Origin: Dysgonomonas hofstadii
GTDB lineage: Bacteria; Bacteroidota; Bacteroidia; Bacteroidales; Dysgonomonadaceae
DNA length: 64,000 nucleotides
Direction: 5' to 3'
Assembly (NCBI RefSeq): GCF_014196915.1
Contig: NZ_JACIEP010000006.1
Location: forward strand, 62,001-126,000
The notes beneath the pieces were generated by a model. The model was not told the origin of the DNA and searched no databases. It was given only the letters and a program-made list of their open reading frames with translations. A program made the position numbers and the translations under genes. Positions 8,303 to 62,060 of this stretch are shown piece by piece (the stretch's first letter is position 1; each line of letters starts with the position of its first letter).

Positions 8303-8914
8303 ATGGCAAAATACAACGAAAAATTAGTTTCACGCATCGAAAGGCTCATAGAAGCCGACCTGTACACAATCTCCGAGATCTGCACGGCTATGAAGATCAG
8401 CCGTAATACGTTTTACTATTGGAAAGAAAAGAATCCCGATTTCAGACGCAGGGTAGACGAAGCCGAAGAACGCCGCGACGATGAACTGGTGAAAATAGCC
8501 CGCTCGTCACTGAAGAAAAAACTGACGGGATATACAACAATCGAAGAGCATTGCACCTATCAGCCTGCGGTTAGCAACCCGTCGGTTATGATCCTGAAAA
8601 AGAAAGTGGTGAAAACCAAACAGAAAGACCCCGACCTGAGGGCGATAAACTATGTGCTGGAACGGGAAGAAAAACGCAAAGAAAAGGAAAAACAGGAAAA
8701 GCCGAAGCTACGGCAGCAAATTATCTATGTGCGCAACCAGCATGAGGCCGACTTATTTATTAAACTGGATAAGCACCTGAACGGGGAAGATAGCCAGGTC
8801 ATCAGGATGGCAACGAAGGAAGAAAGGGAGAGAATTGAAAATGAAGAGCCCCCTTTAGTTCCCCCGGCGGGGGAAAACAGGTCCTCCCCTGCGGGGAGGT
8901 CAGGAGGAGCTTGA
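8303..8914 (+). CDS. Orphan HTH protein resembling a phage terminase small subunit
   Basis: A basic 203-residue protein. Residues 1-50 form a helix-turn-helix of the kind in phage terminase small subunits and the HTH_Tnp/phBC6A51 group (ISEICTAMKISRNTFYYWK). A central segment (about 60-130) has the SLKKKLTGY and DLRAINYVLERE features seen in such terminase proteins, and about 130-150 is lysine/glutamate-rich. The last 20 or so residues (PPLVPPAGE onward) are encoded by palindromic repeat DNA and are probably not original protein. No large terminase, portal or integrase lies nearby, so it is a lone relic or a domesticated DNA-binding protein. Base composition is richer in GC than the flanks. 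Confidence 0.75.
   Translation: MAKYNEKLVSRIERLIEADLYTISEICTAMKISRNTFYYWKEKNPDFRRRVDEAEERRDDELVKIARSSLKKKLTGYTTIEEHCTYQPAVSNPSVMILKKKVVKTKQKDPDLRAINYVLEREEKRKEKEKQEKPKLRQQIIYVRNQHEADLFIKLDKHLNGEDSQVIRMATKEERERIENEEPPLVPPAGENRSSPAGRSGGA
8846..8912. repeat. Nested-hairpin palindromic element, copy 2
   Basis: It has the same order of parts as the copy at 8203-8297: a GAGCCCCC start, hairpin CCCCC-GGC-GGGGG (8861-8873), hairpin CCTCCCC-TGC-GGGGAGG (8883-8899), then GGAGGAGCT. The inner hairpins are longer than in copy 1, and the outer stem is weaker. It is read through as the last codons of the HTH gene, whose stop codon lies at its right end. Confidence 0.7.
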
Positions 8915-8947: not shown

Positions 8948-9104
8948 ATTTCACGTAAAGAAGCAAAGCTAAATACGAATCTTATGCCTGAGCTCGGACA
9001 GCTTTTTGTTCTACGCCTCCACTGCAGGATTGGGTGCCCCGCCTGCGGAATGGATGCCGGAGTCGCAATGCGATGACAAGTGCTACCCGGTCTTGTCAGG
9101 CGTC

Positions 9105-9335
9105 CGCCTGGTGGCATTAGTCCGTAGTGCGGGCGAAAGGGGCGTGAAATGGGAAGCGTCCGCAGGACAATCTTTCCATTTAGCCCGTGAGCCTGTAACG
9201 GGTCGCACGAAGGATGAGCCACCAAAGCGTTTTTGGTTCCTTTTGGGGATTTGGCCAAAAGGAACACAAGCAATCTTCGATTGCGCGTAGCACAAAAAAA
9301 TGAACGATTAGATTTAACTACCAATTCATATTATT
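9105..9335 (+). repeat. Structured dispersed repeat, copy 1
   Basis: Nearly identical to 61612-61856. The closing stem is GGTGGC (9110-9115) with GCCACC (9218-9223), continued by TCC/GGA and GTGCG/CGCAC (9127-9131 with 9204-9208). Inside are two hairpins: AATGGGAA..TTTCCATT, capped by GTCC-GCA-GGAC (9148-9180), and CCCGT..ACGGG (9184-9202). Downstream are a 10-bp hairpin (TTCCTTTTGG 9237-9246 with CCAAAAGGAA 9255-9264) and GCAATC-TTC-GATTGC (9270-9284). The tail carries TGAACGATTA (9301-9310). It could be a non-coding RNA or a small non-autonomous mobile element. The strand given is arbitrary. Confidence 0.8.
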
Positions 9336-61299: not shown

Positions 61300-61360
61300 A
61301 GAGGATATATCTTTCTTATTTATGCCAGTCAGTGGTTAAAATTATTATGATTATAATGAG

Positions 61361-61830
61361 TAATCGTTCAATTATTCTAACGCGCCCTTCGGGTTTGTTT
61401 TTCATTTTGGCATTGCCCAAAACGAAACAAAAGGCTAGTGCTTTGTTCCCCGCCGACCTGTCATCGGCTTGCCGGCTAAACCAAATAAACTCGCCTTCGG
61501 CTCAAACAGAATTTGGTTTCACGCCGTCTTCACCGGACAGGTGCCCGTCGTAGGAACCTATGCACGGAAAGCTGGCGCACGATAGGGAATTACCCTACCT
61601 TGAGGTGGCTTCGCCCGGTGGCATTTGTCCGTAGTGCGGGGTACCCGTCAGGCGAGAGGGGCGTGAAATGGGAAGCGTCCGCAGGACAATCTTTCCATTT
61701 AGCCCGTGAGCCTGTAACGGGTCGCACGGAGGATGAGCCACCAAAGAGTTTTTGGTTCCTTTTGGGGATTTGGGCAAAAGGAACACAAGCAATCTTCGAT
61801 TGCGCGTAGTATAAGAGAAATGAACGATTA
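61361..61830. mobile_element. 470-bp element with 10-bp inverted ends, carrying structured repeat copy 2
   Basis: The ends are exact inverted copies: TAATCGTTCA (61361-61370) and TGAACGATTA (61821-61830), and the match goes on for two of the next three bases. The left 250 bases hold a long imperfect hairpin (around TTTTGGCATTGCCCAAAA, about 61404-61421) and GC-rich DNA; the right part is the structured repeat. No transposase is inside, so it would be non-autonomous (MITE-like). No clear target-site duplication was found at the outer edges. Confidence 0.65.
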
Positions 61831-61856
61831 AATCTAACTCCTGATTCGCATTATTT
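61612..61856 (+). repeat. Structured dispersed repeat, copy 2
   Basis: It matches 9105-9335 with a run of about 70 identical bases in the core. The closing stem is GGTGGC (61617-61622) with GCCACC (61737-61742), and TCC/GGA and GTGCG/CGCAC are kept. It has a 12-base insert after GTGCGGG that itself makes a small hairpin (CGGG-GTA-CCCG). The downstream hairpin TTCCTTTTG/CAAAAGGAA has lost one pair, and GCAATC-TTC-GATTGC (61789-61803) is kept. The repeat runs through the right end of the inverted-end element and on to about 61856. Confidence 0.8.
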
Positions 61857-62060
61857 AGATTGAGTAGACGACAGCTTTAGTATATTATGTCCACAAACAT
61901 GTATTTTTTTAGAAAAACTTTATCTATGTAAATAAAGAGTTATAAATGATGAATTCGAAGAATTGGCAAGGCCAATTATATAAGTTATGAAATATTATTC
62001 GACAGAGCAAAAAAGAGCCAATCATGAAGTAATCGGCAAAATCAACGAGACGCATAAAAT

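Follow-up and report, generated by a model that had tools for sequence, protein, structure and literature searches.

Within the window (the whole stretch of 64,000 nucleotides from Dysgonomonas hofstadii analysed here), a structured repeat occurs twice, and the question raised by this locus is whether these copies represent a small RNA, a regulatory structure or a mobile element. The original prediction left these options side by side. The mobile element, combined with a structured nucleic acid, is upheld by terminal inverted repeats, a 7-bp target duplication and compensatory changes; regulation has been neither demonstrated nor ruled out, and the insertion contexts look neutral. Our preferred reading, to which we give a probability of roughly 0.72, is a mobile element, MITE- or REPIN-like and non-autonomous, which carries two structured modules and relies on an unidentified transposase acting in trans.

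Extent and state of the two copies

Both copies are found where they had been placed, together with the stem GGTGGC/GCCACC, its continuations TCC/GGA and GTGCG/CGCAC, and the hairpins further downstream. The repeat is confirmed, and it exceeds the claimed size: the limits proposed for copy 2 (61612-61856) do not stand, and correspond to one end of a complete element whose true unit is 61323-61850 (528 bp), with its two ends intact, imperfect terminal inverted repeats at both of them and TTATTTA on either side as a perfect 7-bp target duplication. In an alignment of 41 loci with their flanks (two of which are one and the same place), similarity extends upstream of the earlier start, reaching the terminal inverted repeats. 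Copy 1 is a decayed copy of the element, with the right end only: the left terminal repeat is gone, as is the left module as far as about 8962, and the 12 nt (GTACCCGTCAGG in copy 2) that make up the 5' strand of two helices in the rod have been deleted. Because of this loss, the branched part, whose pairs had been described as all kept in copy 2, is in fact fuller there than in copy 1. The features, in window coordinates, are as follows:

61316 to 61322, no strand: left target-site duplication (TTATTTA), identical to 61851-61857
61323 to 61373, plus strand: left terminal inverted repeat of copy 2, from terminal-repeat comparison
61376 to 61547, minus strand (outward is minus): left module of copy 2 (end hairpin, pseudoknotted hairpin, rod), from covariance model R1
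61547 to 61637, no strand: central spacer of copy 2 between the rods, including the 5' strand of the basal stem, with GGTGGC at 61617
61638 to 61811, plus strand (outward is plus): right module of copy 2 (rod, pseudoknotted hairpin, end hairpin), R1 189.9 bits
61749 to 61784, plus strand: pseudoknotted hairpin of the right module (U-rich linker and hairpin), from the alignment
61785 to 61809, plus strand: end hairpin ACAAGC-N-TTC-N'-GCGCGTAG with conserved internal loop, from the alignment of 33 modules
61822 to 61850, minus strand: right terminal inverted repeat of copy 2, from terminal-repeat comparison
61851 to 61857, no strand: right target-site duplication (TTATTTA), identical to 61316-61322
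8962 to 9109, no strand: copy 1 remnant of left module and central spacer, left terminal repeat absent
9115 to 9292, plus strand: right module of copy 1, with the 12-nt deletion in the rod, R1 (L001:1511-1688) 156.2 bits
9302 to 9330, minus strand: right terminal inverted repeat of copy 1, degenerate, 3 mismatches

The left module of copy 2 is matched by R1 at L003:1265-1436, minus strand, with 92.6 bits (E 4.9e-20); the right module (L003:1527-1700, 189.9 bits) was among the sequences on which the model was trained. The remnant of copy 1 (C6:70962-71108) is an 86% match to positions 164-311 of another copy's left half.

The three substitutions in the frame shared by both copies (K-E, R-S and P-A) are confirmed, and 3/3 change the amino acid. 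A translated product under purifying selection would have refuted the original prediction; no frame shows such selection, there is no synonymous excess, and the protein-coding reading is ruled out. Module lengths of 174, 175, 178, 181, 183 and 205 nt break any shared frame, and between 0 and 20 of the 39 right modules in this genome are open in any one frame. Across the six frames of 22 copies of 174 nt, synonymous changes number 24, 16, 22, 18, 23 and 22, where neutrality would predict 21.4, 19.0, 21.0, 20.5, 23.7 and 20.9.

Mirror-image modules and their fold

R1, a covariance model for which right modules alone were used, was searched in 66 loci and finds 122 modules, 63 of right type and 59 lower-scoring, the latter mostly of left type, on the other strand and in the expected place, with E down to 3e-21 (the split is by score rank, and the lower rows include a few from more distant genomes). 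Neighbouring matches run minus-then-plus in 54 of 55 pairs, that is, head-to-head with both modules facing outward, and the remaining pair is plus-plus; the element thus meets the inverted-doublet criterion of REPINs/BIMEs. In non-overlapping head-to-head pairs (the module matches overlap in L086 and L117) the central spacer measures 69-148 nt, mostly 83-109, which is too short for the interior to hold a transposase. Judged from these matches, the element is composed of two homologous modules in mirror-image orientation around a short spacer.

A test for compensatory changes had been called for, their absence being the other outcome that would have refuted the original prediction; they are abundant. 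From 46 right modules extracted, 36 were aligned and 33 retained in alignment A1 (plain MAFFT), three near-duplicates being excluded. In A1, two-sided changes are seen in 23 of 47 pairs, with 96.0% of cells paired; 0/500 shuffles attain the observed value on any of five measures, and a one-column shift of the partner lowers pairing to about 50%. Over the 122 modules, 39 of 42 pairs have changed on both sides (920 cells vs 243 shuffled, 0/500), and the sliding controls collapse. The 122-module alignment was fitted to the model, A1 being the cleaner evidence, and copies from one genome are not independent of each other. This covariation shows that each outward strand forms a rod with bulges, a hairpin and an end hairpin whose internal loop is fixed; the outer pair of the end hairpin is A-T in 21/33 sequences and G-C in 11/33.

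The rod contains a recurrent asymmetric bulge (GTR opposite A) beside GGC/GCC; many modules also carry the apical internal loop CTGTYTGA/GAGTT, with GC/GC as its closing pairs. This apical motif is present in its exact form in 10/39 right and 19/36 left modules of the genome under study, and in 5/24 right and 4/23 left modules of relatives; when up to two substitutions are allowed in TGTTTGAGC..GCGAGTT, the corresponding numbers are 11 right and 35 left in the genome itself, and 18 right and 5 left in relatives. Since the exact form is absent from most right modules of the genome, the motif is not obligatory.

In paired columns of the outward strand, G-U prevails over A-C by 76:14 in right and 98:16 in left modules, by 32:10 and 74:8 after dropping rows at least 90% alike, and by 41:11 on A1 (R1 favours G-U, and alignment to it may slightly raise the left figure). 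Genome-wide mutation bias fails to explain this excess, since the modules sit on opposite strands. The figures point to the outward strand of each module acting single-stranded; RNA and single-stranded DNA are not separated, and there are no expression data. Given the mirror layout and the outward-strand fold, a read-through transcript from either flank would end in one intact outward-folding module.

The segment upstream of the second hairpin is complementary to the hairpin loop, with AAAGC facing GCTTT in the consensus of the window family (in copy 2 itself the segment at 61743 pairs with the loop only partly), and variant loops come with variant complements (CTTGAT with ATCAAG, CTTGAC with GTCAAG, ATGCC with GGCAT). 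Within A1 these positions are 87.9% paired, and 0/5 pairs show a two-sided change. The cross-phylum sample consists of the 43 modules with a fitting hairpin out of 86 stem-flanked ones among the matches listed; there, the complement averages 4.72 nt vs 3.66 with swapped loops (0/1000) and reaches at least 5 nt in 23/43 modules, the swapped-loop maximum being 16. A first version of the test, also among the matches listed, gave 3.45, which is above the swapped maximum of 3.23 and below the shuffled-loop maximum of 3.48; the redefined test also counted loop-closing pairs. The putative H-type pseudoknot is therefore supported across variants and phyla, not by A1 covariation. In the same 43 modules among the matches listed, the linker follows a U.A-U / C+.G-C rule against the purine arm over a run of 5.12, vs 3.81 for shuffled linkers (0/500), and a triple helix of the U-rich linker with the pseudoknot stem is predicted, not shown. 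In the telomerase RNA pseudoknot, a U-rich linker forms a major-groove triple helix in an H-type pseudoknot; the element, with its U-rich linker beside a U/A-rich stem, may be compared with it as an analogy of fold only, and no homology is claimed.

Insertion, dispersal and relatives

With the 231-bp copy 1 as query, 42 matches (73-100% identical, two of them second pieces of one place) are found in its own 5.0-Mb genome, a repetition far above chance; merged with left-half queries, they give about 50 element places, counted from 42/42, 40/54 and 30/63 match rows of the three queries. The outer terminal repeat, with up to 3 mismatches, has 94 matches vs 4 for a reversed control. A wide terminal-repeat search produced noise, and a tightened search yielded 38 terminal-repeat pairs, which include chance or internal pairs that weaken rather than create a duplication signal. 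In these pairs, flank identity at k=7 is 0.673 vs 0.505 shuffled (0/2000), the next best among the other lengths from 3 to 11 being k=9 (53/2000 shuffles as high); at least 5 of 7 sites match in 25/38 pairs, and the duplication is perfect in 6. As far as sequence alone can tell, and with target duplication examined solely in this genome, the insertion site is shown to be A/T-rich, near TWAWTWA, with a constant 7-bp duplication, which implies a transposase with a 7-bp stagger. Variants of the inner terminal repeat agree within a copy at 4.91 vs 4.25 of 6 sites (1/5000 permutations, 23 copies), and the outer 16 nt agree below chance (4999/5000 permutations as high or higher); from these variants, elements tend to combine one end of each of two types.

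Some loci depart from the usual form. L025, L026, L027 and L040 make up a sub-family without the usual terminal repeats, in which each copy has complementary ends of its own; these ends (GGTCATTTT/AAAATGACC, GGTCGTTTT/AAAACGACC, GGTCTATTTAT/ATAAATAGACC) change together, with one mismatch in L040. Tiny elements of 63-111 bp (L121:100-162, L122:92-168 and L095:2002-2112) are barely more than two terminal repeats, and their target duplications match at 6/7 sites in L095, 5/7 in L122 and only 3/7 in L121. In longer composites of 791-1046 bp (L088:594-1492, L112 and L113:133-923), a different repeat (ACTAATTAAGATTGAATACACTACGTTCGG) replaces the interior beside the left hairpin.

With terminal inverted repeats, a constant-length target duplication and no protein of its own, the element meets three criteria for a MITE. 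As for an autonomous parent with the same ends, a far from complete survey of 20 loci of the genome and 22 of relatives (ORF starts inspected by eye) revealed no transposase between terminal repeats; around the terminal repeats of the former 20 lie ordinary cell genes and one helix-turn-helix gene (in L088), the profile search in these loci having been limited to an IS110 gene and two small packaging/HTH genes. The IS110 transposase (DEDD_Tnp_IS110, Transposase_20; L356:2015-3004) stands about 490 bp outside a relative's element, and the IS110 start motif occurs in 1/171 loci scanned, namely that one. We tentatively take this gene as a neighbour and not the mover, since IS110 elements are not known to produce such a target duplication. 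The transposase ORFs of an autonomous parent, we propose, would be flanked by TGCSAATCAGTAGTTRNATT.

Beside copy 1, the window carries at 8303-8914 an orphan helix-turn-helix / small-terminase-like gene (Pfam HTH_Tnp_1_2, Phage_term_sma), with 20 matches in its own genome, some of them fragments, and matches in 16/31 genomes, own included. Copies at C6:70303, C6:4260 and C16:78889 are within about 350 bp of an element, the copy at C5:88048 adjoins a hairpin remnant, and the leaders of several copies have palindromic repeats of their own.

In the mechanism that we propose, an element of about 0.53 kb would insert with a 7-bp duplication and become dispersed to about 50 places, moved by a transposase acting in trans (inferred, as none was found). 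Transcription from either flank would then give RNA ending in one intact outward module, whatever the orientation of the insertion, and the fold would be maintained because the element can spread or be tolerated only if a protein or RNA partner recognises that fold.

Copies are detected by DNA similarity in 15/61 genomes; R1 finds modules in 5/395 phylum-wide genomes (six candidates scored per genome), and the exact apical motif is present in 14/296 sampled genomes of the phylum, with 69 matches vs 6 in the reversed control and 34/69 in the genome under study, which is included in all three genome counts. On these counts, the family is patchy in the phylum. More widely, an exact apical scan of one genome per species (84,980 bacterial and archaeal species) gives at least 119 stretches; as the pattern is short, with about 1250 chance matches expected across the whole genome collection by our own arithmetic, only stem-flanked matches were counted. 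Among the matches listed, at least 8/10 flanking positions are paired in 78/126 cellular matches (115 loci; random-offset mean 3.7) vs 14/122 in viral contigs (Fisher p 4e-17), and the viral ones among them look mostly like chance. On 80 of the at least 119 apical loci, R1 gives E <1e-3 for a Petrimonas MAG, two Flavobacteriaceae, Perlabentimonas and a Burkholderiales MAG. Among the 80 titled loci of the matches listed, those with stem-flanked matches include Burkholderiales, Gammaproteobacteria, Nitrospirae, Desulfobacterales, Clostridium, Lachnospiraceae and several Bacteroidota. An opposite-strand partner lies upstream in 13/56 stem-flanked modules among the matches listed (9 loci; the 56 are those with 900 nt available on both sides) and downstream in 0, with a same-strand partner in 1; by eye, the Variovorax, Zoogloea, Comamonas and Pasteurella copies have their parts ordered as in the window element. 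Judging from such resemblance, other phyla share the apical motif, the pseudoknot and the head-to-head arrangement; similar sequences are presumably common between proteobacterial genes.

A second flank class, with GCGAGGA before and CCGCAG after the apical motif (e.g. L180, L181, L233, L284), may be a distinct sub-family. No match was found to the window element in plasmid records, to the Pasteurella relative in E. coli, or to the Zoogloea relative in phage records. Phage or plasmid carriage was considered and rejected, with one Microvirus record showing no more than a short hairpin match: in MT135430.1 (L287:29-72), a 44-nt stretch is 93.5% like the left pseudoknotted hairpin, with no rod in the following 420 nt.

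Alternative readings and meaning

A broader claim, for the present tentative and unlikely, would be that of a class of mobile elements in several bacterial phyla, with head-to-head RNA modules bearing a triple-helix pseudoknot, in which the RNA (as guide, template or transposase co-factor) aids its own spread and is supplied by read-through from either flank.

We also consider it rather improbable that the modules are two divergent small RNAs with a cellular job (e.g. sponges or base-pairing regulators), passively spread by a MITE. Covariation that is strand-specific in both modules, a pseudoknot with a predicted triple helix as in known RNAs, and a structure kept across phyla would all suit such RNAs; nevertheless, the roughly 50 diverged places per genome, the patchy occurrence (15/61 genomes, 14/296 for the exact motif) and the neutral contexts are unlike a housekeeping sRNA, and no promoter has been established.

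Doubtful as well is a single-stranded DNA element, whose rods and hairpins an HUH/Y1 enzyme would recognise, as RAYTs do in moving REPINs. G-T pairs are also tolerated in DNA hairpins, and GTAG or GCAG follows the end hairpin in most copies. However, Y1_Tnp is found in 9/15 element-bearing vs 28/46 element-free genomes and modules in 0/30 fetched Y1 loci, so that mobilisation by Y1/RAYT was rejected; additionally, a 7-bp target duplication is not a known product of Y1 enzymes, and REPIN/BIME insertion is not known to bring a target duplication. According to the accessible part of PMC3116915, the element resembles REPINs/BIMEs, in favour of single-stranded DNA, in being a pair of inverted palindromic units around a short spacer and in its extragenic, high-copy, dispersed and non-autonomous nature, and the hairpins of REP doublets (with RAYT) are predicted in ssDNA or mRNA. 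Within the same limits, it differs from them in that modules of about 170-210 nt, comprising rod, pseudoknot and end hairpin, take the place of the short REP palindrome, in the 7-bp target duplication, and in having no association with Y1/RAYT genes (PMC3116915).

Very little speaks for a domesticated intergenic element acting as a bidirectional transcription attenuator or as a 3' stabiliser, apart from the distal module of any read-through transcript being the folded one. The contexts of 58 loci (tandem 27, divergent 19, convergent 12, genes being open frames of at least 90 aa) look neutral, as for intergenic insertion, with no enrichment downstream of genes, and the sequence after the end hairpin, in the direction of the module, is A-rich, not T-rich. 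A terminator or 5'-leader role was rejected on the same neutral contexts. An ordinary MITE whose palindromes are kept by DNA template switching (quasipalindrome correction), without a functional fold, is scarcely tenable, for although the inner terminal-repeat variants match within a copy above chance, correction would erase the conserved mismatched internal loops and the pseudoknot, and G-U is favoured on a single strand that is opposite in the two modules.

The non-autonomous mobile element that we prefer has several known counterparts. The BOX, RUP and SPRITE repeats of Streptococcus pneumoniae are likewise modular, structured, dispersed and non-autonomous. As described in the available portion of PMC4596501, the Porphyromonas gingivalis MITEs BrickBuilt, MITE239 and MITE464 are similar in being sub-kilobase, non-coding and dispersed, with terminal inverted repeats; these repeats, as printed there, differ in sequence from those of the element, whose interior is a covarying module pair and not tandem repeats, and whose target duplication is, in contrast to theirs, constant at 7 bp. 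Candidate structured RNAs from comparative genomics (PMC2864571), such as Bacteroidales-1, Flavo-1 and GUCCY-hairpin, are also covarying structured sequences in Bacteroidota; for some motifs the table of that paper gives no Rfam entry, and these fall outside our Rfam comparison. The original prediction recognised no named RNA family, and this holds in Rfam 15, where the window and 22 loci give 0 matches at the gathering threshold, with two miRNA models below it. No description of the element was found in the full-text literature, by topic or by sequence (subscription papers and preprints being outside its scope), nor in the accessible portions of PMC2267715, PMC9723704, PMC2864571, PMC3116915 and PMC4596501. 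A non-autonomous inverted-repeat element is of a known kind; the paired structured modules and the spread across phyla are new.

If the cross-phylum homology is true, a structured, mobile, high-copy element of several bacterial phyla is missing from Rfam. It would provide a well-defined system in which to ask whether folded RNA or folded DNA is the route by which bacterial miniature elements spread, and would account for many intergenic palindromes that lack annotation and many spurious small ORFs.
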